A stretch of 44,192 nt of DNA from an uncultured Spartobacteria bacterium (lineage in GTDB: Bacteria > Verrucomicrobiota > Verrucomicrobiia > Chthoniobacterales > UBA6821), in assembly GCA_903847935.1 (NCBI GenBank), contig CAINEX010000073.1, positions 1-44,192 on the forward strand, read 5' to 3'. A program made the position numbers and the translations under genes. Position 1 is the first letter of the stretch, and each line of letters starts with the position of its first letter. Shown piece by piece: positions 3,707 to 44,192 of the stretch. The notes beneath the pieces were generated by a model. That model searched no databases. It was not told where the DNA came from and worked only from the letters and a program-made list of their open reading frames with translations.

Positions 3707-5665
3707 TTGAAACCTTTTATATTATATTTTGCTACTATTGCTGCTTGCTTTGCGAATGATATTTATGTAGATAACAGAAATCACAATTCAAGTGATTCAA
3801 ATAATGGTTCCATTAAGCATCCATTGAAGAGCTTAAATGAGGCTGTTCGCCGCATTAAAGCAGGTCAAACTGTCTGGGTCAGTGGATCTACCTACCGCGA
3901 AAGTTTCACGATTCCTATTGGAAAGGAGGGAAATCCAACTATTTTTGCAGCAATGAAGGGTCAGCAACCATTGATAACCGGAATGGATCTAGTCACTGGT
4001 AAGTGGCAATCACATAAGCGCGGAGTCTATTCAATCTTCTGGGAAAATTCAACACAGATAGCTTCCTGCGACAATGAACTTCTAAAGCAAATAGGGATGT
4101 TCAAACATCTTGCTCCCAACGGATGGAAGGAGCCATCCACTCAACTTAAGGGCAATGAATATAATCTAACGCCAGGAACATTCTATTATAATTCGGAAAA
4201 AAGTCAACTATGGGTAATGTTGAGGGATTTATCCTCACCATCCATGCATAAAATGGAGGTTTCCTCTAGATCGTATGGAGTTAAACTTCAAAGTCATACA
4301 AGACTTTTTGGTTTTGAGACAGGCTACTTCCAAACATCTGATAAAGGGGAGGGTAACGGAATCCAAGCATCAGGAGACGATATTATTATTAAAGATTGTA
4401 ATTCGCATCATAATGATTTTAGTGGTATTTACCCTCAAGGCCGTAAAATTGTAATAGAAAAATGCAAATCAGAGTTCAATGGGAATAATGGTTATACTAG
4501 TAGTTTTGGTTTTAATATTACATTAAACAATTGTACATCACGAAGTAATAACACTCGAGGATATGATTTAGGATGGCATGGAGGCGGGCTAAAATTTGTA
4601 CAACAACGGAATCTTGTAATAATAAATCATATTTCAGAGAATGAAGGAATGGGGATTTGGTTGGATGTTAACTGCCTTAATTCAAGCATTATAAACTCAA
4701 AACTTAAAAATTGTGGTATTGGGATCTACTATGAAATAGGGCGGTGGGGAGTTATCATTAATAATACACTGGAAAACTGTAAACGTGGTATCTGGAGTTA
4801 CTCATCAGATATGCTTATTGCAAACAATGAAATGATGGGATGTAAACAGGGGATTATAATAACAGGTGATCACAGATGCTTTGAATATAATTTAGGCTAT
4901 GGGACAGAACCTGGCAAAGACACGCCAACAGTTGGTTCTGTAAGAAATAATGTTGTGATCAATAATCTTATCATCAATGCCTCTGAATGTAATGTTGGAA
5001 TCTGGACTGATTCCCCTTTTTGTGGTGGAAATATATGTGATTGGAATGCGTATGTAAAAACCCCCGATTTCCAAGAGAGGCTTATTAACTCTCAAGCTAA
5101 TGCAAATAAAATAGATGATATTAACAAAAAAACAGCAAAATATTTAGATATAAAAAACGAAGTTCAGGCTGTTAAAGAAAACTTTACATCGACAGTGAGC
5201 TTCTTGAATCGTGGAGAATTTGGTTTTTGGTCATCTTGGGGAACACTTGTCAGCCCAAAATTATGGAACGAACGAGGTTTTGATCTGCATAGTAGATTTA
5301 TTAATTATTCACAAGCAAATGGTTACCAACGAAAAGAGAAGGAAATAGAGAAAATAATTGCAACAAATTTACCCACCGATTTTACCAAAAAACTGATTGA
5401 CAATGAGAAAACACTCAAGTCTACGGGACGTAATTTTTCAATTAAACTTGACCGAGGCAAAGACTGGAATGGTCACCCATGGGTATTGATTGATAAAGTA
5501 AATTCCAATGAAACTGGAGCAATTAAAGTAGATGGAATGTGGTTTAAGGGTGATCAACCATTACCCTTTATTCGAAAAATCACAATTGTGGATGAATGCG
5601 CCCCCATGCCTGTAGGTCCAGTAGAACGCTTCAATGTGGTTACTAATTGCCCCAGTTTTAATTAA
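3707..5665 (+). CDS. Secreted right-handed parallel beta-helix protein
   Basis: This 652-residue protein opens with a signal peptide of about 16 residues (MKPFILYFATIAACFA) and then NDIYVDNRNHNSSDSNNGS, the YVD..G.D.N.G pattern that begins many beta-helix and DUF1565-type polysaccharide-active proteins. Residues from about 190 to 420 are Asn/Gly-rich irregular repeats (IIKDCNSHHNDFSGIYPQG, IVIEKCKSEFNGNNGY, IINSKLKNCGIGIYYE) expected of a right-handed parallel beta helix. These folds usually bind, cleave or epimerise acidic polysaccharides outside the cytoplasm. Activity here is unproven. The start is TTG. Its place inside the glycosyltransferase operon suggests it modifies, trims or retains the glycan made by its neighbours. 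Confidence 0.75.
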   Translation: MKPFILYFATIAACFANDIYVDNRNHNSSDSNNGSIKHPLKSLNEAVRRIKAGQTVWVSGSTYRESFTIPIGKEGNPTIFAAMKGQQPLITGMDLVTGKWQSHKRGVYSIFWENSTQIASCDNELLKQIGMFKHLAPNGWKEPSTQLKGNEYNLTPGTFYYNSEKSQLWVMLRDLSSPSMHKMEVSSRSYGVKLQSHTRLFGFETGYFQTSDKGEGNGIQASGDDIIIKDCNSHHNDFSGIYPQGRKIVIEKCKSEFNGNNGYTSSFGFNITLNNCTSRSNNTRGYDLGWHGGGLKFVQQRNLVIINHISENEGMGIWLDVNCLNSSIINSKLKNCGIGIYYEIGRWGVIINNTLENCKRGIWSYSSDMLIANNEMMGCKQGIIITGDHRCFEYNLGYGTEPGKDTPTVGSVRNNVVINNLIINASECNVGIWTDSPFCGGNICDWNAYVKTPDFQERLINSQANANKIDDINKKTAKYLDIKNEVQAVKENFTSTVSFLNRGEFGFWSSWGTLVSPKLWNERGFDLHSRFINYSQANGYQRKEKEIEKIIATNLPTDFTKKLIDNEKTLKSTGRNFSIKLDRGKDWNGHPWVLIDKVNSNETGAIKVDGMWFKGDQPLPFIRKITIVDECAPMPVGPVERFNVVTNCPSFN

Positions 5666-8237: not shown

Positions 8238-9356
8238 ATGACCCATTCAAATTATAAAAACATTAGAATTAAATTCTCCAAGAGAGTTGTCATCTATGCA
8301 CTCTCATTTGTATCAATCATCATTAAGGCATTACTGAGCTGCAAAAAAAAATCTGATCAGGTTATTGTCATAGAGCCATATGGAATGGGGGATGTAATCT
8401 CCCTACTTCCTCTTATTGAAAACCTTAAAATAGGTAATGTAATAACTTTTTTATATAAAAAAACAATGGCATGATTTATTGCAACTGATGATAATATGGA
8501 ATTGTTAGATTGTGATTTGCCGTGGTCGAGTTACAAATCTGGCAACAAATACAAAATATCGAGCATATACAATGCCATAAAACGACTTTGGAAATTGCGA
8601 GATAAAGTTGCAGGGTCGACTGGCATTGACCCCAGAGGAGATATTAGAAGTATCCTAGTCCTGTACATCCTTGGATGTAGCTCGGTAATTACCCTGAACA
8701 GATATTTGGGAACGAATGCCAAGATTCCCCAATGGGTAGCAAGCACCATAGACTATTCTAATAATAAGAGGCGGTGGGAGATTGCAGCGGAAATGTCTGA
8801 AAAAATAGGATTAAAAGAGCAAAAAACTCCTCCTAGACTTGGAAAGACCAAGGAAATCAGAGCTTTCAAAGATGCTATTTTTATCCCCATAGCGCCTTGG
8901 AGAGGAAAATTATGGGCTTCTGAAAGGTGGGCTGAATTAAAATTCGAATTAGGGAAAATGGGGATTTCATCCAAAGCAGTTTGTGGTCCAAGTCAAGAGA
9001 TGGAATTGAAGAGTTTTCTGCCCGAGTTCGATTTCGTTGTAGCTAAAAATATTCAAGATTGGATTGATATTTTTAATGGTACGGATTTTTTGATTACCTT
9101 GGATAGTGGACCGATGCACTTAGCGGATGCAATGGGAATTCCCTTAGTCGCTTTGTTTGGTCAGGGTCAACTGCCATTGTGGGCACCAAGTGGGATGTGT
9201 TCTATCATTATTCATCATCAAGATGATCCCGACTTTGAACCCTGTCATCAAATCGAAGGAAATGAACCTATAGGAAAATTACTAATGGAGAAAATTTTAG
9301 TTTCTGATGTGCTTGCTTCCATCAGCGATCTCCACAATCGCCTAAGCATAAAATAG
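8238..9356 (+). pseudogene. GT9 (heptosyltransferase-like) gene interrupted by an in-frame TGA
   Basis: Two open segments, 8238-8474 and 8496-9356, are in the same frame and separated only by a TGA at 8472-8474 plus seven sense codons before the next ATG. Read through, they give about 372 residues with the GT9 layout of ADP-heptose:LPS heptosyltransferases. VIVIEPYGMGDVISLLPLIENL is the N-terminal glycine-rich donor-side loop, GIDPRGDIRS follows, and the C-terminal domain has FLITLDSGPMHLADAMGIP (D-S-G-x-M-H-L-A-D) and VALFGQ. A single CGA or TGG to TGA change would explain the break. Other genes here use TGA as a normal stop, so recoding is unlikely. The ATG at 8496 would give only a truncated protein lacking the first loop. 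A sequencing error is also possible. Confidence 0.8.
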
Positions 9357-36155: not shown

Positions 36156-36166
36156 AAGAATCCCAC

Positions 36167-36215
36167 CGGAGTTGACGGGGCTCGAACCCGCAACCCCCGC
36201 CGTGACAGGGCGGTG
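36167..36215 (-). tRNA. 3' fragment of tRNA-Asp(GUC), attachment site of the element
   Basis: On the minus strand the sequence runs from the anticodon stem (CCGCC, loop CTGTCAC, GGCGG) through the variable region and T arm (GCGGG-TTCGAGC-CCCGT) to the acceptor 3' strand CAACTCC plus discriminator G. The anticodon GTC is at 36204-36206. The 5' acceptor strand and D arm are missing; unrelated sequence starts at about 36216. CCA is not encoded. This is the classical remnant left when an element integrates into the 3' half of a tRNA gene. The int gene starts 75 bp away. It is not a functional tRNA by itself. Confidence 0.88.
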
Positions 36216-36223
36216 CGTAACTC

Positions 36224-36247
36224 TTATGACACAGAATGACTTGTCAT
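36224..36247. other. att-proximal motifs: TTATGACACA and ATGAC-TT-GTCAT
   Basis: TTATGACACA occurs at 36224-36233 and again at 37592-37601, directly repeated on either side of the integrase gene. ATGAC (36236-36240) and GTCAT (36243-36247) form an inverted repeat next to the first copy. Sites of this kind beside the core of a tyrosine-integrase attachment site may be arm-type binding sites for the integrase or excisionase; this function is inferred from position. Confidence 0.45.
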
Positions 36248-36289
36248 CTACTTGTCAAATAGACGCATCTTTTTCAATTTTGCGTGACC

Positions 36290-37525
36290 ATGCGCAAAAC
36301 AAAGCTGGCCCTTAAAAAAATCAAAAACAAAGCGGGAATCAGCTGGCAGGTTGTGTTTCCAAAACCCGGCAAGGGCCGGGATAGGAAAACATTCAAGTCG
36401 AGGATTGATGCTCAAACATTCTTCGAGCAAAAAAAAGTTGAGTTGGCCAATTTTGGAGCTGCCGGTGCTTCCATGAGTGAGAAGCTCCGCGGAGATGCCT
36501 TAGCTGCGGCTGAAGTACTTAAGTCACACGGCAGTACACTTTTGGATGCGGCAAAATTCTATGTGAATCACCTTTTGAAGACATCTGGTGGCATCCCTCT
36601 CAAGCAAGGGTTGGATTTGCTACTGCTCGATCGTGAAAAGCCGATGTTCTCTCCTATCTATCGCAAGTCGCTTAAACATCGACTGAATCCATTCGTGAAA
36701 AACTTTCCAGAGGACAAGTCAACAAGACAGGTCACGCCAGCTGATGTGGAAACGTTCTTAAATCAATTACAATCAATCGGACGCGCACCTGCGACAATTG
36801 AGTCTTATCGTAAGGAAATCTTCACACTCTTTTCCTTTTTAAAAGATAGGGGCCATTGCGGAGAGAATCCGGCGAGTCTTATCAAGAGAGATCAAATCGT
36901 TACCCGAATTGAAATCCTTACACCAACGCAGTGCGCGCGTCTTCTTGATGCTTGTGACGAGAAGACACTTCCATCGATAGCGCTAGGAATGTTCTGCGGG
37001 CTGCGTTCAAGCGAGTTAGAGCGCCTCGATTGGTCGAGAGTCAACCTTGTTGAGAAGGTTGTTGTAATCGATCCGACAGTTGCTCGAAAAACTGGAGCAA
37101 GGAGAGTTGTACCGATTCCAGAAAACTGCGTGGAATGGCTATTGCCTTTTGCAAAAGAGGCTGGTGCGGTTCAACCCAAATGTTTTCGTAATCTGCGCGA
37201 CTGCACACGCGTGAGAGCTGGATTTAGCCCCTCATACGCAAAGCGTGATTTTATAGAATTGCAGAGACTTTTGAAAGTAGCCAAGCACAACGAGGTAAAG
37301 CTACAGCCTTGGCCACAGAATTGCTTAAGGCACTCGGCTATTAGTTATGCATTAGCCAAATCAAGGGACGAGAGTAAGGTCGCATCATGGGCAGGAAATA
37401 GTCCTGCAATGATCAAGCGGCACTACGATTCGCAAGCCATGCCATCAGCCGCAAAAGCATTCTATGAGATTCGTCCGCAACTTCCCGATAATGTAGAGCA
37501 AGTAGGGTTTAGCGCGGCCGCATAA
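36290..37525 (+). CDS. int: Tyrosine recombinase (phage-type integrase)
   Basis: This 411-residue integrase has an N-terminal arm-binding region (KLALKKIKNKAGISWQVVFP), a core-binding SAM-like domain (from about 120, including TPADVETFLNQLQSIGRAPATIESYRKEI) and a C-terminal catalytic domain. Visible catalytic residues are Arg in FCGLRSSELERLDW, a Lys in ARKTGARRVVPI, Arg-His in NCLRHSAISYALA and the Tyr nucleophile in KRHYDSQ. The usual His of the H-x-x-R and G-H-S boxes appear as Asn (NCLR, AGNS). It would catalyse insertion into and excision from the adjacent tRNA-Asp site. I prefer the ATG at 36290 over the GTG at 36284. Confidence 0.92.
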   Translation: MRKTKLALKKIKNKAGISWQVVFPKPGKGRDRKTFKSRIDAQTFFEQKKVELANFGAAGASMSEKLRGDALAAAEVLKSHGSTLLDAAKFYVNHLLKTSGGIPLKQGLDLLLLDREKPMFSPIYRKSLKHRLNPFVKNFPEDKSTRQVTPADVETFLNQLQSIGRAPATIESYRKEIFTLFSFLKDRGHCGENPASLIKRDQIVTRIEILTPTQCARLLDACDEKTLPSIALGMFCGLRSSELERLDWSRVNLVEKVVVIDPTVARKTGARRVVPIPENCVEWLLPFAKEAGAVQPKCFRNLRDCTRVRAGFSPSYAKRDFIELQRLLKVAKHNEVKLQPWPQNCLRHSAISYALAKSRDESKVASWAGNSPAMIKRHYDSQAMPSAAKAFYEIRPQLPDNVEQVGFSAAA

Positions 37526-37542
37526 AAAAGATAGTTTGAGTA

Positions 37543-37568
37543 AAGAGTGGGGCCACTCTTATTTCAGT
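37543..37568 (+). terminator. Terminator hairpin after the integrase gene
   Basis: AAGAGTGG (37543-37550) pairs perfectly with CCACTCTT (37553-37560) around a GG centre, followed by ATTTCAG. It lies 17 bp after the int stop codon. The T-run is short, so efficiency is uncertain. The stem also works in the reverse direction. Confidence 0.65.
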
Positions 37569-37591
37569 TATGATGAACGGCTTATGGGCTT

Positions 37592-37690
37592 TTATGACAC
37601 AAAAAGCTTCCTGAGTGTAAGTACTTATCGGTGATTTATATACTAAACCTAAGCGGCTTGGAAATACCTGACTATAAGCGGTTTACAGAA
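37592..37690. other. Intergenic region with att-type repeat and TAAGCGG repeats
   Basis: The 245-bp gap between int and the HTH gene has no gene. It holds the second TTATGACACA (37592-37601) and two near-identical TAAGCGG motifs, CCTAAGCGGCTT near 37646 and CTATAAGCGGTTT near 37672, spaced about 27 bp. Such spaced direct repeats could bind the adjacent excisionase-like protein. The region is A+T-rich and probably also carries the promoter for the replication genes. Confidence 0.45.
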
Positions 37691-37770
37691 TATGCCATCT
37701 TGACCTGCGATTGTATTTATGAAATCTGTCTTGCATCCGCATTCATGCAGATAAATCAACCCGAACCATC

Positions 37771-37998
37771 ATGTATCAAATCGTAAAGTCATCACAACCA
37801 TCGACCCCATCAGAATTTATCACTGGCTTTCAGTGCAAAGCAGATGTTGCAAAACGCTGCAAAGTCAGCACCAGAACCATCGACTCTTGGATGAGTCAAA
37901 AGAAAATCCCATTTATCAAGGTGGGGAGAACAGTCCGCTTCCGCTGGAACGCCGTGGAGCATGCTCTCAATCGGTTCGAACACAAATCTATCAGTTAA
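37771..37998 (+). CDS. Excisionase-like helix-turn-helix protein (AlpA/MerR-like)
   Basis: This 75-residue protein has the single domain of excisionase-family DNA-binding proteins: CKADVAKRCKVSTRTIDSWMSQKKIPFIKVGRTVRFRWNAVEHALNRF. The helix-turn-helix is followed by a beta hairpin with the P-x-x-K-x-G-R-x-x-R-F signature. In phages and satellites such proteins bend attachment-site DNA to favour excision or activate transcription of the replication genes. It starts at ATG 37771 and lies directly before the primase-like gene (38003), so it is probably the first gene of a plus-strand operon. Confidence 0.82.
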   Translation: MYQIVKSSQPSTPSEFITGFQCKADVAKRCKVSTRTIDSWMSQKKIPFIKVGRTVRFRWNAVEHALNRFEHKSIS

Positions 37999-38002
37999 TC
38001 TT

Positions 38003-39148
38003 ATGAACCACTCAATCAACACGATTCAACCAGCCTCAGAAGATGCAGTGGATAAAAAACTAAAGTCTTATGGTTTAAAATATATCCGAATGGAAAACCG
38101 CTCTTTGACATCAAGGATAAGTTCCACAAAGACAGCAATCGATATAGCAGCTGAGGATTTGGCTAAGAAAATCTTCATACAGCGTCTATCTCAGGGCTCC
38201 GAGACCGGGCAACTTCCGATGCTTAATACCAAGGAAGCATTCATCACTCCTTTGATTTTGAAAAAGCGAAAAATGCGAATCCCAAAGCGCATTTCTAACG
38301 AACTTAAAACTCCTCCTCATCGAACTGGAGGACTTCATAAATGGATTTTTGTGATGGCGCTTAAGCTGCTTCGTTATCGTTCTCCAGAAGAAGCCATCCG
38401 CCTGATAGATGGGGCTACGGCTAGTGAAGCGGTTCGATCCGGTGAAATAGAAGAGGCTGTTCAAAATGCTGCTAATGGCGGCAGCCGTAAGGCATCAACG
38501 GGTGCAATCATCCAATCACGTCCCCCAAGATTCCCAACAGTTAATCAAGTACTCCGCAGAGATATAATTGTAAGAGGCGGTGGCCTAGCCGATCTATGTG
38601 AGGCAAGTCCTATTCGATTTTTGGATGATGAGCCTCATACAAATGAAATCATCGATGCTCTCTTCCCGGCTGAATCCCTACTCTGTTGTGGGATTAGTTC
38701 CTCCCGATTCGATACCAAGGAACGTAGCAAGTGGCGTGATTTGTCCTCGCTTCAACTGATCGTTCCCAACCCTATGTCCTCACTAAAAGGACTGACAAAG
38801 GCGGGGAAGCAGTCAGCTCATACCCTTGATAATACAGGCCCACGGCGGTTTCTTATCGTCGAGCAAGATTCAGGCAATACGGATGAGCAATCATCAATAA
38901 TGCTGCACCTTGCTGAAAAAGCTCCTCTGGCCCTTGCGGTGCATAGTGGCAGCAAGTCTATTCATGGGTGGTTCTACTGCGGAGATGAGTCAGAGGAACG
39001 TCTACGTTCTTTCATGAATTACGCGGTCTCACTTGGTGCCGACCAAGCAACTTGGACTCGATCTCAGTTCGTTCGCATGCCCGGTGGCCTACGCGATAAT
39101 GGTAATCGCCAAAGTATATATTTCTTCAACCCATCGGTAACCTTATGA
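38003..39148 (+). CDS. Primase-like replication protein (AEP superfamily, tentative)
   Basis: This protein of about 381 residues is probably divided into an N-terminal region of unknown fold and a C-terminal domain. The latter contains RRFLIVEQDSG, LALAVHSGSKSIHGWFYC and WTRSQFVRMPGG. The S-G-x-K-x-x-H-x-W and R-x-P-G-G segments are reminiscent of archaeo-eukaryotic primase domains of plasmids and prophages. The expected acidic D-x-D metal ligands are not unambiguous, so activity is uncertain. I place the start at ATG 38003, right after the HTH gene; an earlier ATG at 37961 lies inside that gene. It overlaps the helicase gene by 4 bp, as in two-gene primase-helicase replication modules. Confidence 0.6.
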   Translation: MNHSINTIQPASEDAVDKKLKSYGLKYIRMENRSLTSRISSTKTAIDIAAEDLAKKIFIQRLSQGSETGQLPMLNTKEAFITPLILKKRKMRIPKRISNELKTPPHRTGGLHKWIFVMALKLLRYRSPEEAIRLIDGATASEAVRSGEIEEAVQNAANGGSRKASTGAIIQSRPPRFPTVNQVLRRDIIVRGGGLADLCEASPIRFLDDEPHTNEIIDALFPAESLLCCGISSSRFDTKERSKWRDLSSLQLIVPNPMSSLKGLTKAGKQSAHTLDNTGPRRFLIVEQDSGNTDEQSSIMLHLAEKAPLALAVHSGSKSIHGWFYCGDESEERLRSFMNYAVSLGADQATWTRSQFVRMPGGLRDNGNRQSIYFFNPSVTL

Positions 39149-40686
39149 ACAATTTAGCCAACAATCTAGTTCCTCAGGAGGAAATCACTCCAATCATCAC
39201 GATCAATGGTAAGCCAGCAGTACGACTACCCGGCGACTTTCACCTTGTGTCAGAATTCGCTGAAAATCTTGGTCGACTTGTAAAAGGACATGGAATCTAC
39301 GTCCGTAAGGGAATTGCTTTTACGCTCAACCTAGATACGCAACGTCTGGAACCCGCAACTCCAACCTGGTTGAGAACGTGGGTTGAAAAGCATGCTGTGC
39401 CTTTTAGGAACTCTAATCAGGGAGGTGATATTCAGATAACGAAGTCGATGAGCAAGGACAATGCCGAAGCAGTCCTTGCGTCCGAACAGTTTTTGGATCA
39501 GCTGCCCAAGGTTGAGAGGTTTCATCCATGCCCGATGCCCGTACTCCGGAAAGATGGAAGTATTGAACTCTTGCCCATAGGGCTTGACGAAGAGAGTCAT
39601 ACATTTACAGCTGACCCCGAGTTTTTGATTGAGCCTGATTCTTTAATCGATGCGCGTATGGTTTTAGACACCTTGCTTAATGAATTTGCATGGCCTGATG
39701 ACCAAGGTCGTTCGAAGGCAGTCCACATAGCAGCCATGTTGACGGTATTCGCTGGAGGTATAATGCCACCTGATTCAATCAAGCCTGTCTTCTTCTACAC
39801 GTCTAATGCTGAAGGCAGCGGAAAAACCACCTTAGCGCAACTGGCCGGCATGCCTTATCGCTCTACCCCAGTGGAAACAGCTCCCAAAGATGAGGCCGAG
39901 TGGCAAAAGAAACTCCTTACAGTAGCTATATCTGGGCGCAGGCTTCTTTTACTCGATAATCTGAAAGGGCATCTAAATTCAGGGGCCTTTGAGGCTTACA
40001 CGACATCTTCCCAGTTTACCGGGCGTATTCTAGGAGGATCTAAGGAGTTTACAGGTGAGGCTGGAGCAACCGTGCTGATAACGGGGAATGGGCTTACCAT
40101 TACTCCCGATCTTCGGCGGAGGTCGCTCTTCGTCGAACTCTTCCTCAAGGAACTTCGTGCAGAGGATCGTAAGTTCAAAAGAATTCTGGATCCGTATGCC
40201 ATTGCTTCAATGCGGAGAGAGGTTCTTTGCGCTCTTTGGGGACTTGTTCATGAGTGGGACAAGGCTAGGAGAAAAGATGCTTCAGTTCAAAATGCTTCAT
40301 TTTACAATTCTAGCTTCCCGCGCTGGTGTGAATCTATCGCAGCTATAGTCGAGTTTGCTGGTTATGGTTGCCCCACAATTCCGGCTGAAATAGATGGAAT
40401 GGGAGATACGGATACAGCAGATATTTCTTCACTCTTAGAGGTGATGGAGTCGGGGAAGCACTATGAATTCTCAGATCTCACCAATATTGCAATCGAGCAG
40501 GGTCTATTTGAGCGATTTACGTCAGATTTAGATCCGGGAAATCCTCTTGAATTAAGCAGACGGGCAAAGCGGCAGTTCGCGTCAATTCTGAAAAGATATG
40601 ACAACAGACGGGTTAAAGATAACCCGGTTTTTCTCGTTCAAGGCAAAGGTCATTCCCGGCGGTATCTCAAGTCATCGGATACATGA
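39145..40686 (+). CDS. SF3-like replicative helicase / P-loop ATPase
   Basis: This 513-residue protein has a P-loop ATPase domain in its middle: Walker A SNAEGSGKTTLA (220-231), Walker B RRLLLLDNLKG (266-275), sensor Asn in LITGNGLTITPDL (Asn315) and the Arg finger region DLRRRS (322-327). This order is that of D5/SF3-type helicases in phage, plasmid and satellite replication. The N-terminal 200 residues may be a primase-linker or DNA-binding domain. The C-terminal part (from about 380) is alpha-helical and may load onto the origin. It overlaps the primase-like gene by 4 bp and ends inside the iteron array, so the origin lies immediately downstream. Confidence 0.8.
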   Translation: MNNLANNLVPQEEITPIITINGKPAVRLPGDFHLVSEFAENLGRLVKGHGIYVRKGIAFTLNLDTQRLEPATPTWLRTWVEKHAVPFRNSNQGGDIQITKSMSKDNAEAVLASEQFLDQLPKVERFHPCPMPVLRKDGSIELLPIGLDEESHTFTADPEFLIEPDSLIDARMVLDTLLNEFAWPDDQGRSKAVHIAAMLTVFAGGIMPPDSIKPVFFYTSNAEGSGKTTLAQLAGMPYRSTPVETAPKDEAEWQKKLLTVAISGRRLLLLDNLKGHLNSGAFEAYTTSSQFTGRILGGSKEFTGEAGATVLITGNGLTITPDLRRRSLFVELFLKELRAEDRKFKRILDPYAIASMRREVLCALWGLVHEWDKARRKDASVQNASFYNSSFPRWCESIAAIVEFAGYGCPTIPAEIDGMGDTDTADISSLLEVMESGKHYEFSDLTNIAIEQGLFERFTSDLDPGNPLELSRRAKRQFASILKRYDNRRVKDNPVFLVQGKGHSRRYLKSSDT

Positions 40687-40774
40687 CCTGCATGATCTGC
40701 ATGATATTTAACCCCATATAGAAATACCCCTTTCCCTAGATAGCTTAAGAATGATGCAAGTCATGCATATCATG
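40682..40774. repeat. CATGA 9-mer iterons in two opposed clusters, candidate replication origin
   Basis: Three tandem 9-mers read CATGACCTG, CATGATCTG, CATGATATT (40682-40708). After a 48-bp A+T-rich stretch, two copies occur in inverse orientation, CAAGTCATG and CATATCATG (40757-40774). TGCATGAT appears at 40689 and 40698 and as its complement ATCATGCA at 40769. The helicase stop codon lies within the first iteron. Tandem and inverted iterons flanking an A+T-rich stretch directly after a primase-helicase gene pair are the expected shape of a satellite or plasmid origin. The repeats are seen directly; origin function is inferred. Confidence 0.75.
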
Positions 40775-40811
40775 CACACCTCTTAGAGATCAGGCGGGAA
40801 CAACCAAAATT

Positions 40812-41219
40812 ATGAAACCAAACTTGAAAAAACAAACCTCTGTCAAAAGAGCAGTACCTGCCCCCCCCTCAACCGAATTCAAGGAAACAATGCTCCTGCT
40901 CATGGAGCGTATTATAGAGGCGCAGGAGAAGCGTGATACTCTGCAACACGAACGCAACCTCGAAATGCTCGATAAGGGCATTAAAGCCTACGTTGTAGCT
41001 GAAAAGTCAAAGATCAGTATCATGCAAGCAATTGCCCGTACAGACTCCCTGACTAAAATAGCACTTAGCGACCTGCCCGGTTTAAGTAGACCGGATCTTG
41101 AGAGATTCTTCAAAGAAGTCGTTACCCCCACCAGTCGTCAAATACACTACGCAAGTGAATTTGCGGCACCTGAATCTGAAGAGGGATTTTGGGAAATATT
41201 TAACGAGGCTGGACTTTAA
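40812..41219 (+). CDS. Small charged protein of the element, function unknown
   Basis: This 135-residue protein has a basic N-terminus (MKPNLKKQTSVKRAVPAPP) and a long, charged, probably coiled-coil helix (FKETMLLLMERIIEAQEKRDTLQHERNLEMLDKG, about 23-56). The C-terminus is acidic (APESEEGFWEIFNEAGL). I recognise no family. It follows the iteron array by 37 bp, so it could be a replication, segregation or partition accessory protein, but only the location supports this. It starts at ATG 40812. Confidence 0.55.
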   Translation: MKPNLKKQTSVKRAVPAPPSTEFKETMLLLMERIIEAQEKRDTLQHERNLEMLDKGIKAYVVAEKSKISIMQAIARTDSLTKIALSDLPGLSRPDLERFFKEVVTPTSRQIHYASEFAAPESEEGFWEIFNEAGL

Positions 41220-41257
41220 TCATTTTCTAAAGCCCCCAAGGAGCCACTCTACAACGC

Positions 41258-41330
41258 TGCACTGATGCACTGTAAAATTGTTGCACTGCAGCAAGGAAGC
41301 AGAGCTACAGGGCATCCTTGCAGCAGTGTA
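41258..41330. repeat. TGCACTG repeats and 16-bp imperfect inverted repeat
   Basis: TGCACTG occurs at 41258-41264, 41266-41272 and 41282-41288. Positions 41282-41297 (TGCACTGCAGCAAGGA) and 41315-41330 (TCCTTGCAGCAGTGTA) form a 16-bp inverted repeat with two mismatches around a 17-nt loop. It lies in the 177-bp gap between the converging ends of the plus-strand unknown gene and the minus-strand pentapeptide gene. It could be a bidirectional terminator or a second protein-binding site of the element. No T-run follows. Confidence 0.6.
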
Positions 41331-41396
41331 GTAGGGTGTCGATGTGCTCCCGGTGAATGCTGAATCAGTGCTACACGCCGCATTAAAGTCTTCAGA

Positions 41397-43523
41397 TTAA
41401 TGAAACGCTTTAACCGTCATGACGCGGGAAACGGGTTTTGCAGCGCTGTAGAGCCCGTTACCTGACTGGGTAGCCGTGATAGTGGTTACTCCAACGCCGG
41501 TAACCGTGACTGTGTCTCCGCTGATCGTTGCGACCTTCGGATTGGACGAGGAGAATGAGACCATTAATTCCGAGGAGCAACTAGCTGTAATAGTGAAGGG
41601 AGGCTCCCCAAATGTTTGAGTTGGAAGAGGGTTGAAGGTGATTGTTTGTGGGTTTTTAAAGATATATAAATAAGCGGTCGAGGTAGCGGGTAGGTAGTTT
41701 GCGTTGCCTGCTTGCGAGGCTATGATGGTGGTGGCACCTACCCCATTCAGGGTCATGGTGGATCCTGATACAGATGCAACGTCGATATTTCCACTCGTGA
41801 GTGTGACTGGAAGCCCCGCGGAAGTACGAATGTTAAAGTCGAGTAGGTTAATCGACCCCAAACCTATCCAAGCGTACGTCCAGCCTTTAAATGAAAAAAA
41901 GGAGGGGGTGTTTGCTGGAGGAGTAAATGAGAATGTCTGTAGAGCCTTTGAGACCACTAGTTTTTGACTTACTGGGGGTGCCCAGAAGAAGTTCGAGTTC
42001 CCATACTGTAACGCACTTACAGTCGTGGTGCCGGCGCCAGTGATGATTAGATTTGAGCCCAAGACTGAAGCTACGTTGGAATTTCCTACCAAGTAGCTAC
42101 AGGGAAGCTTAGAGAAAGCCGTTGCCTTGAGTGAGATTTGCGGGCCACCATAAATTGCTGCCGGTAGTGGCGGGAACTTAATTGTCTGTGTTTTGGGAGA
42201 GGGGTTGAGGACGACGGCTCCGGCAGCAATGGGATTGAATCCCTTAGGAAATATAGTCCCCGCCGCGATCTTTGCCCCTGTGAAAACAGCATTAGATAGA
42301 TTGGCCCCTTTAAAATTAGCAGCATATAAAATACTCCCTGAAAAATTGCACCCGGTGAGGTTGCAATTTGTGAAGCTAGCGGCTGTGAAATCAATTCCGC
42401 GCAGGTTATTCAAAGAGAGATTCTCTCCCTGAAAGTTGATTCCGGGGCCAAGAGCTCCTAGATGCAAAAAGTCAAATCCAGTAGGCCAGATCGTGTTGGT
42501 AGTATAGAGGGTGTTTGTGAAAAGAGCCCCCGTGAAATTAATACCGGATAGGTTGATGCCCGAAAGGTTTACCTCAGAGAGGTTAGCATTAGGCCCGTAG
42601 GCTCCTGAGGACTGGTAAGGAAAGTTTGTTGGCCAAACTGTGCTGCTGTCATAGATCGCACCAGTGAGATTTGCGCTATCGAGATTGGCAATAGTAAGAT
42701 TGATGCCAGATAGGTTGATTCCAGAGAAGTTAACCCCTGTAAGATCTGCATTTGGCCCGATAGCTCCTGAATTCTGATAGGGAAAATTGGTTGGCCAAAT
42801 TGTATTAGAATCATAGATCGCACCGGTTAGTATCGTGCCCGAGAGGCTTACCTGTGAAAGGTCAACTCCAGAGAGGTCGCACCCTGATAAAATAGCATTA
42901 GGGCCAAAAGCTCCTGACGTCTGATAATCAAACCCGGCAGGCCAAAAAGTATTGGAATCGTAGAAGGCGCCTTTAAAACTAGCGCCAGTTATATATGCTC
43001 CATACATATATGTCCCGCATAAGTTCGCACCATTAAACTGATCTCCTGCTAATGATAAACTTCCTATGAAGGCGTCTTTCAGATTAGCTCCTGTAAAGTC
43101 TATACCTGATAAATCTGTGGAAAAGTCGTATCCGGAAAGCTGGGCATGAGGGCCAAAAGCTCCTGAGTATTGGTAAGAAAACCCGGCAGGCCAAATAGTT
43201 TTGCTATCATAAGTAGCTCCATCTAGTTGACCCGGGTAGTAAAGAGGGACGTTGGACAGATTTGCTCCTCTTAGGTTTGCATAAAAAAATTGAGTGTTTA
43301 AATCATTAGTAGCAACTAATGTTGCTCCTGAAAGATTAGCATAATTGAAGTTATAGTATGAGATGTCACCAAACCTTAGTGTCTGACCGCTTAGATTAGC
43401 ATGATCGTATTGTGCTAAAAGGTTCGGCCATATTGGCGAGATTAAATTCCCTAGCAGAACAAGTACAAAACCCCTGAACGGTGTACTTCTTTTGATACGC
43501 CTAGATTTTGTGAGGATATTCAT
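41397..43523 (-). CDS. Secreted pentapeptide-repeat protein with C-terminal Ig-like domains
   Basis: This 708-residue protein has an N-terminal basic stretch and signal-like helix (FRGFVLVLLGNLISPIWPNLLAQ). Residues from about 40 to 440 are pentapeptide repeats of the A-x-L-x-x kind (ANLSG, ANLRG, ADLTG), expected to build a right-handed quadrilateral beta helix. At least five copies of a separator interrupt them: Y-D-S-x-T-I-W-P-x-x-F-x-Y-x-x-S-G-A-x-G-P-x-A-x-L. The C-terminal 260 residues are two to three Ig-like modules (QTIKFPPLPAAIYGG, QTITFNPLPTQTFGEPPF; each ends in V-x-G-x-G-x-T-T). It is probably an extracellular or surface protein. Its role is unknown; no DNA-gyrase-mimic evidence is visible. 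Confidence 0.8.
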   Translation of the reverse strand: MNILTKSRRIKRSTPFRGFVLVLLGNLISPIWPNLLAQYDHANLSGQTLRFGDISYYNFNYANLSGATLVATNDLNTQFFYANLRGANLSNVPLYYPGQLDGATYDSKTIWPAGFSYQYSGAFGPHAQLSGYDFSTDLSGIDFTGANLKDAFIGSLSLAGDQFNGANLCGTYMYGAYITGASFKGAFYDSNTFWPAGFDYQTSGAFGPNAILSGCDLSGVDLSQVSLSGTILTGAIYDSNTIWPTNFPYQNSGAIGPNADLTGVNFSGINLSGINLTIANLDSANLTGAIYDSSTVWPTNFPYQSSGAYGPNANLSEVNLSGINLSGINFTGALFTNTLYTTNTIWPTGFDFLHLGALGPGINFQGENLSLNNLRGIDFTAASFTNCNLTGCNFSGSILYAANFKGANLSNAVFTGAKIAAGTIFPKGFNPIAAGAVVLNPSPKTQTIKFPPLPAAIYGGPQISLKATAFSKLPCSYLVGNSNVASVLGSNLIITGAGTTTVSALQYGNSNFFWAPPVSQKLVVSKALQTFSFTPPANTPSFFSFKGWTYAWIGLGSINLLDFNIRTSAGLPVTLTSGNIDVASVSGSTMTLNGVGATTIIASQAGNANYLPATSTAYLYIFKNPQTITFNPLPTQTFGEPPFTITASCSSELMVSFSSSNPKVATISGDTVTVTGVGVTTITATQSGNGLYSAAKPVSRVMTVKAFH

Positions 43524-43550
43524 TTTGGCAAATCAATCAGGGATACAATC

Positions 43551-43566
43551 GTTCTCCTAGGAGAAC
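43551..43566. promoter_or_regulatory. Perfect 16-bp palindrome between divergent genes
   Basis: GTTCTCCTAGGAGAAC at 43551-43566 is its own complement. It lies 27 bp before the pentapeptide gene start (43523) and 37 bp before the XRE gene start (43603), in the only gap between them. XRE-type regulators commonly bind such palindromes and repress divergent promoters, so it is a good candidate operator for the adjacent regulator. Binding is inferred. Confidence 0.65.
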
Positions 43567-43602
43567 TACCCTCCTGCAAATGTAACATATCGTCAAGTTC
43601 CC

Positions 43603-43845
43603 ATGAAGGAACGGCGCAACATGAATGTGGTAGGGCCTCAGGTGCGCAAGTTCAGGATGCAGCGTGGATGGAGCCAGCCCAATATGGTGACAAAGTGCCA
43701 AATAAAGGGATGGGACGTGAGCCGTGAGTCGCTTGCTAAGATCGAGTCAAGGCTCCGAAGCGTTACCGATATCGAAATCCTGAAATTAGGAAAGATTTTG
43801 GAAGTTCATCACTCGGCCCTCTTCCCTGACTCTAAGGGAGTTTGA
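43603..43845 (+). CDS. XRE-family helix-turn-helix regulator
   Basis: This 80-residue protein is a single XRE/Cro-CI domain: VGPQVRKFRMQRGWSQPNMVTKCQIKGWDVSRESLAKIESRLRSVTDIEILKLGKILEV. The helix-turn-helix lies around WSQPNMVTKCQIKGWDVSRESLAKIE. There is no sensor domain. It starts at ATG 43603; a second Met seven codons later (43621) is also possible. A perfect palindrome in its upstream gap suggests autoregulation and control of the divergent pentapeptide-repeat gene. As in many elements, it may act as a lysogeny-like switch, which is speculation. Confidence 0.82.
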   Translation: MKERRNMNVVGPQVRKFRMQRGWSQPNMVTKCQIKGWDVSRESLAKIESRLRSVTDIEILKLGKILEVHHSALFPDSKGV

Positions 43846-44008
43846 GATGGCGGTGTTAGACTCATGCGAGTGGGATAGCGTTCCAATCTGACGTTTAGTG
43901 ATATGAATGCCTTTCGGCTTTCATCTTCCACCCTTGGTTTGATTTTTCTGTTCTTTGAAATGAGATCTTAATGATGTTCTCACCAGAGACCCTATTGGCA
44001 AGCTCGGC
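43846..44008. other. Intergenic region without recognised genes
   Basis: The 163 bp between the XRE gene and the partial gene at the right edge contains no supported coding region. A short GCC-TTTC-GGC hairpin near 43907 could help terminate either gene, but no T-run accompanies it on the plus strand. I see no tRNA, repeat-family copy or attachment site here. Confidence 0.4.
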
Positions 44009-44192
44009 TTATTCCTCCTCGTAGTCGTCCTGCTCTTCCGGGGAGCAGAACTTCACGATTTCAGCGTGCTCCTCCTCTGTCAAAGGACGTCCGAGTTCTT
44101 CTTCTTTTTGTTCGACAAACGCTTGGATCACGTCGTCGATCTCTCCGATGTCGGTATACCATCCGCGATCTTTGGATGAGGACTCCTCCTCA
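44009..44192 (-). CDS. Partial acidic protein, C-terminus only, running off the right edge
   Basis: The minus strand has an open frame that enters from beyond 44192 and ends with TAA at 44009-44011, giving at least 60 residues. The visible part reads GWYTDIGEIDDVIQAFVEQK, then EEELGRPLTEEEHAEIVKFC and SPEEQDDYEEE at the end. It is very acidic and mostly helical. Its start is outside the window. No family is recognised. The continuous frame to the window edge and sensible codon use support a real gene. Confidence 0.6.
   Translation of the reverse strand, partial: EEESSSKDRGWYTDIGEIDDVIQAFVEQKEEELGRPLTEEEHAEIVKFCSPEEQDDYEEE

Follow-up and report, generated by a model that had tools for sequence, protein, structure and literature searches.

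Phage-inducible chromosomal islands (PICIs) carry a pri-rep-ori module that drives plasmid replication, in which the origin (ori) lies directly 3' of rep and has an A+T-rich region between its two sets of iterons (PMC6092414). Rep of the Staphylococcus aureus pathogenicity islands (SaPIs) and the protein Cch2 use their C-terminal domain to bind iterons located directly downstream of their own genes (PMC7581432). Here we examine 44,192 nucleotides of an uncultured Spartobacteria bacterium (Verrucomicrobiota; assembly GCA_903847935.1, 2.18 Mb in 140 contigs), namely contig CAINEX010000073.1 (C73), which is referred to as the window throughout. Together with a second contig (C100) it holds an 11.69-kb integrative island at a tRNA-Asp gene, which very probably replicates itself and works like the PICI pri-rep-ori module. 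In layout and gene order, the island is a variant of the PICI-type plan with a helicase family outside Pfam and NCBIfam. The Verrucomicrobiota, a phylum for which a literature search of incomplete coverage found no described satellite, thereby gain a satellite-type island with defined ends and a predicted origin.

Replication genes and the predicted origin

The genes for the integrase, a helix-turn-helix (HTH_17) protein, a primase and a helicase all lie on the plus strand (Table 1), and the start codon of the helicase gene overlaps the stop codon of the primase gene (ATGA). An earlier note, made from the letters of the window alone, had claimed an HTH gene, a primase-like gene, a helicase gene and a repeat array in this order, and all of them were located at 37771-40776. 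Profile searches of the two replication proteins, which the same note had called for, gave a match for the primase in PHROGs only (phrog_2597) and none in Pfam or NCBIfam for either protein; by these searches the helicase family is absent from both collections. A PDB sequence search likewise returned no meaningful match.

The primase model has a predicted local distance difference test score (pLDDT) of 86, and its catalytic part (residues 208-381) matches the fold of archaeo-eukaryotic primases (AEPs) with Z-scores of 8-11, among them S-2L PrimPol (Z 11.2), RepB' (Z 10.8) and the human and yeast primase subunits (Z ~10). The residues E287xD289 and S319xH321 are invariant in 52 sequences. With an AEP fold and both the acidic and the S-x-H catalytic motifs, the primase is, on the evidence of its model, a member of the AEPs. 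For superfamily 3 (SF3)/D5 helicases the defining features are Walker A, Walker B, a sensor Asn and an Arg finger in combination with a D5/SF3 AAA+ fold. The residues G226, K227, D271, N272, N315 and R326 of the helicase are invariant in nine sequences, and its best Foldseek matches, D5/E5, the SaPI5 primase-helicase, AsfvPrimPol and NrS-1, fit a tentative placement in SF3/D5; D5, E5, SaPI5 and NrS-1 stand in the top ten, with E values of just 7e-4 to 5e-3 and a best Z of 5.3 from a model of pLDDT 61.

Six 9-mers stand in exact 9-bp register at 40680-40776, where they overlap the stop codon of the helicase gene. Three are direct (40680 TACATGACC, 40689 TGCATGATC and 40698 TGCATGATA) and three inverse (read on the reverse strand, 40750 TGCATCATT, 40759 TGCATGACT and 40768 TGCATGATA). 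The earlier note had counted three direct and two inverse copies; the direct count stands, and the inverse count rises to three with a copy that bears one mismatch in the core word. Its A+T-rich core is present as well, over 43 bp, with an A+T enrichment that is merely mild (63% versus 54-55% in the flanks). Not one of 5000 dinucleotide-preserving shuffles reached the 2-unit or the 3-unit score of the array, a score which rewards tandem units per arm and complementarity between the arms. As in the published definition of the PICI origin (PMC6092414), the array lies directly 3' of the rep-type gene, with an A+T-rich region enclosed by its two iteron sets, and it is a strong candidate for the replication origin of the island. 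Lone iteron-like words also occur at 37741-37775 (before the HTH gene and at its start) and at 41018 (inside the 135-aa gene), and these are possibly autoregulatory or due to chance.

Table 1. Features of the island; positions are those of the window unless prefixed with C100.
Feature	Position	Strand	Basis or remark
attL, 58-bp direct repeat with displaced 3' part of tRNA-Asp(GTC)	36159-36216	-	identity and tRNA calls; empty site
Island part within the window	36159-44192	.	continues on C100 1-3717 after 61-bp overlap
Tyrosine integrase, 413 aa	36284-37525	+	PF00589 5.7e-8; phrog_1 1.5e-31
HTH_17 / excisionase-type DNA-binding protein, 75 aa	37771-37998	+	PF12728 4e-7; TIGR01764 1e-7
AEP-type primase, 381 aa	38003-39148	+	phrog_2597 1.6e-5; structure model
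SF3/D5-like helicase, probable replication initiator, 513 aa	39145-40686	+	invariant motif residues; Foldseek matches
Left iteron array, 3 x 9 bp	40680-40706	+	repeat analysis
Core, 43 bp, 63% A+T, putative melting site	40707-40749	.	base composition
Right iteron array, 3 x 9 bp, inverse	40750-40776	-	repeat analysis
135-aa protein	40812-41219	+	no relative in 210 genomes of the order
Pentapeptide-repeat protein with Ig-like domains, 708 aa, cargo	41397-43523	-	PF00805 2.4e-42
HTH_3-like regulator, 80 aa	43603-43845	+	PF01381 6e-4 (below curated cut-off); phrog_5823 4.6e-5
105-aa acidic open reading frame	44009-44192	-	runs on into C100
Second 58-bp repeat copy	C100:3718-3775		inside intact tRNA-Asp C100:3726-3799

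The mirrored arms could also be read as a regulatory operator or, in the transcript, as a hairpin where the helicase gene ends, rather than as an origin, since they fold as RNA better than shuffles do (z -3.7) and since one of the lone words, at 37741, lies upstream of the HTH gene. Any mirrored array folds, however, and 40680-40776 contains neither a terminator-like hairpin with a T tract, for which reason a transcription terminator is not supported, nor an Rfam match. Relatives keep the 9-bp tandem register while the word changes, a register that a hairpin does not need, and in one relative (L081) the arrays are situated inside the helicase coding sequence. We regard the operator or hairpin as highly improbable.

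As an origin, the array would take part in a simple sequence of events. Upon induction, excision by the HTH protein and the integrase would yield the circular form of the island; the helicase would then bind both iteron arrays, probably by its C-terminal part, assemble on both sides of the core, melt it and unwind outward. The AEP primase encoded in the same operon would prime synthesis, and the host polymerase would copy the circle. We propose the helicase-loading step because of the precedent of SaPI Rep/Cch2 and of the PICIs (PMC7581432, PMC6092414), and because iteron word and helicase co-vary amongst relatives.

Mirrored 9-mers in relatives and archaeal plasmids

The layout recurs beside related helicases. 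Amongst 23 relatives that served as discovery set, the window included, period 9 stood out (combined P 1e-7, eight members at P<=0.01). Mirrored period-9 iterons were then detected in 21 of 42 held-out relatives, which had been found after the hypothesis was formed and played no part in forming it, each at P=0.0025, the floor of a test with 400 shuffles (combined P 2.7e-26); the remaining periods gave a much weaker signal in this set, although some was seen at periods 6-8 and 10-12. The ends of 93 other genes from the same loci served as a control and gave no excess (P 0.27). With a wider search span, a score >=1.5 was reached by 30 of 65 relatives versus 2 of 311 controls. Relatives are partly non-independent by kinship, so the combined P values are indicative, and it is safer to go by the counts against controls. 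A single-sequence search of genome contigs and viral contigs with the helicase confirmed 0 related loci, and a 12-row alignment was too diverse.

The iteron word varies from member to member, being TGCATGAYN in the window and CCACACCAA in a congener (G012), with CCGCAGCAA, TCCCCYCAA and GCACCCCGT among further relatives. Similarity of the words tracks similarity of the helicases (Mantel P 0.001), and the correlation is nominally highest for the C-terminal part of the helicase (rho 0.36 versus 0.22-0.27 for other parts). The earlier note had named beforehand the absence of iterons from related elements with the same genes as a result that would speak against it; they are present beside these genes, and their sequence differs. 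Since the 9-bp step is fixed and the word changes along with the helicase, recognition between origin and initiator becomes testable by swaps of arrays between relatives.

The closest complete element (L081/L163; L163 is contig 42 of G083, a Chthoniobacter metagenome-assembled genome) has a helicase 55% and a primase 44% identical to those of the island. It spans 8.3 kb at a tRNA-Arg gene, between direct repeats at ~135-180 and 8449-8494, and carries an integrase gene, two HTH genes, primase and helicase, with the gene order of the island, and also a gene similar to that of the terminase small subunit (TerS). Its 3+3 iterons lie within the 3' end of the helicase coding sequence (L081:5078-5177), where they encode short repeated tripeptides (QGP, LAD) and where the 9-bp step preserves the reading frame; the view that L081 lacks iterons was rejected on this ground. 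Another relative from the Chthoniobacteraceae (L137) combines integrase, HTH_17, primase, helicase, iterons and a TerS-like gene.

Primases of this family are common in Verrucomicrobiota (primase loci L131-L243), and the gene downstream encodes one of three partners: an AAA_25 ATPase, a DUF5906 helicase or a helicase of the window type. Three unrelated downstream ATPases with one primase family suggest module swapping. Mirrored 9-mers were found 3' of the DUF5906 partner genes in 8 of 16 cases. For the AAA_25 partners ('cluster A') the signal is weaker than computed, because the set wrongly took in three members of the DUF5906 cluster (L225, L227 and L231).

Similar arrays are also present in archaea. 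The plasmids pRN1 (L360), pRN2 (end of L362, and L372) and pHEN7 (L361) have mirrored 9-mer pairs 3' of the primase-helicase gene (P 0.002 each), with cores of 58-65 bp and the words GTCCA, GGAC and GTCAC, each exactly 9 bp apart. The segment 3' of the pRN1 gene is experimentally essential for replication, and its published description is of a stem-loop that lacks an iteron structure (PMC4234260). These plasmids resemble the island in the combination of an AEP primase with an SF3 helicase and in the mirrored 9-bp layout, whereas they are free archaeal plasmids with a fused primase-helicase; they do not make three independent cases, being related to one another. We speculate that, in bacteria and archaea as in phages and islands, the origins of one class of SF3/D5-type initiators could share a general design of mirrored tandem 9-mers around a core of ~35-65 bp at the initiator gene's 3' end, in which the 9-bp step would be set by the DNA-binding geometry of the initiator and the word would drift with the protein, and that the pRN1 stem-loop could really be such an iteron array; the odds of this seem to us evenly balanced. 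This offers a new reading of an experimentally mapped origin. The period-9 test was not passed by phages of other groups with P4-type primases (phiBT1, Nitro, 9NA, Dismas, Pmp7 and Vibrio 1.098), by the satellite Javan605 or by the plasmids pDL10 and pHTUR06, and the layout therefore marks one class and not all P4-type systems.

Boundaries, cargo and lifestyle of the island

Both ends of the island can be placed by its 58-bp attachment (att) repeats. The tRNA-Asp(GTC) 3' part at attL (minus strand 36167-36215) has an identical copy in the intact tRNA-Asp on C100. Two congeners (G013 and G008) have an empty site, at which both island flanks adjoin across a single tRNA, and G005 agrees with them through two contigs that overlap within the tRNA; an occupied site in G005, considered on account of two tRNA-Asp matches, was rejected, as both matches are to one intact tRNA, seen at the ends of two contigs that overlap there. 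C73 ends in the 61 bp with which C100 begins, and an open reading frame stays open across the join. From the att repeats, the empty site, and the overlap with its open frame, the island measures 11,690 bp as a circle. The extent of 37771-40774 given by the earlier note proved too small, as the element reaches from 36159 to the end of the window and over ~3.66 kb of C100. Part of the 105-aa acidic frame (44050-44192) has an 87%-identical DNA copy at C110:2116-2258, which is probably why the assembly breaks at the end of C73. Next to the tRNA-Asp of this genome lies ~1.5 kb with a major facilitator superfamily transporter gene (C100 ~3872-5397), which most congeners lack at this site.

Besides the replication module the island carries the pentapeptide-repeat/Ig-like protein, the HTH_3-like regulator, small open reading frames, and a NUDIX protein and an SRA-HNH protein as cargo. 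The NUDIX gene (PADLOC PDC-S07, 9e-47) overlaps the SRA-HNH endonuclease gene at the attR end (C100 2138-3423), and the pair is a possible defence cassette against modified DNA. The 135-aa protein was considered as a conserved member of the module and rejected for want of relatives. Searches of the 11.69-kb island with Pfam and PHROGs recognised no gene for a terminase, portal, capsid or relaxase, and weak PHROG 'portal' and 'structural' matches fall on the NUDIX domain and the Ig-like domain. The observation of the earlier note that capsid, relaxase and packaging genes are not visible thus extends to the whole bounded 11.7-kb island.

Phage satellites have been defined as elements of 7-20 kb with an integrase between attL and attR, and with regulatory and replication modules in the absence of structural genes (PMC13376191); the definition also has them travel in a helper phage's particles. 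The island has 58-bp repeats, a length of 11,690 bp, an integrase by attL, and HTH_17, HTH_3-like, primase and helicase genes. We lean slightly towards a satellite lifestyle, with cell-to-cell spread in the particles of a helper phage; that the element is a satellite needing a helper, as had been supposed, is plausible. Alternatively, replication might just stabilise or multiply the circle of an integrative island that is no phage satellite and moves by transformation, general transduction or a conjugative element. The lack of any recognised terS, capsid-remodelling, interference or relaxase gene in the island agrees with this, as does cargo (NUDIX and SRA-HNH proteins) typical of defence islands, but its size, att repeats, gene order and lack of structural genes fit the operational definition of satellites (PMC13376191), and the relatives L081 and L137 carry a TerS-like gene, so that we consider this alternative possible though doubtful.

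The replication module alone does not prove a satellite, because it is common to phages and small islands. Beside the same helicase family, terminase and portal genes are found at L083, L085 and the viral contigs L343 and L344, and a terminase gene at L176; the Akkermansia phage Moulinsart also carries the primase-helicase pair. The island might accordingly be a decaying prophage remnant, left by a temperate phage that had the same primase-helicase-origin module and, once integrated, lost the genes for its head and tail. Against such decay, the integrase, HTH, primase and helicase genes are intact, as are both att repeats; the closest relative, an island that was inserted independently, follows a similar plan and likewise has no structural genes; and the cargo is not phage structural. 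A remnant is therefore unlikely.

Several points weigh against a self-replicating satellite-type island. Its excision, replication and binding are predictions from sequence, the structure model of the helicase is of low quality (pLDDT 61, best Z 5.3), and in about half of the relatives the period-9 test detected no array. Complete prophages use this helicase family too, neither a terminase small subunit gene nor a cos/pac site was recognised in the island, and the join of C73 to C100 rests on the 61-bp overlap and the geometry of the empty site.

Comparison with known systems

The adjacent primase and helicase of Moulinsart belong to the same families and lie beside an integrase, as in the island; Moulinsart differs in being a 31-kb phage record, and no period-9 array was found 3' of its helicase. 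With P4 the island shares the small integrative format, and the crr of P4, 3' of alpha, has type I iterons in both orientations, two of them 9 bp apart. As an exact match crr was rejected, since it is less regular and its period-9 score is not significant. P4-like satellites are recognised by alpha, a fused TOPRIM primase-helicase (PMC4234260), whereas the island has a separate AEP-type primase and helicase; the P4 morphogenesis genes sid, delta and psu were not recognised in it.

SaPI5 PriRep and SCCmec Cch2 resemble the island in their D5/SF3-type helicase and in binding repeats directly 3' of the gene (PMC7581432). SaPI5 also has an AEP primase, which is fused to the helicase there and separate in the island, while Cch2 has 5-nt direct repeats as opposed to mirrored 9-mers.

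The PICIs (SaPIs, EcCICFT073) differ in phylum and in helicase family, that of the island being outside Pfam/NCBIfam. PICIs are further marked by phage-dependent induction and by interference with their helper. In the island, no gene was recognised for a master repressor, for interference or for TerS, nor were the capsid-morphogenesis genes present, like terS, in some PICIs; TerS-like genes do occur in its relatives L081 and L137. Structural genes, as in PICIs, were not recognised in the island either, and both share the order of integrase, HTH/xis-type protein, primase and helicase-initiator, with the origin directly 3' of the initiator. The earlier note's reading of a replication module is well supported, and its nearest published layout is the PICI pri-rep-ori plan more than P4, since the island has an AEP-type primase that is not fused to the helicase.

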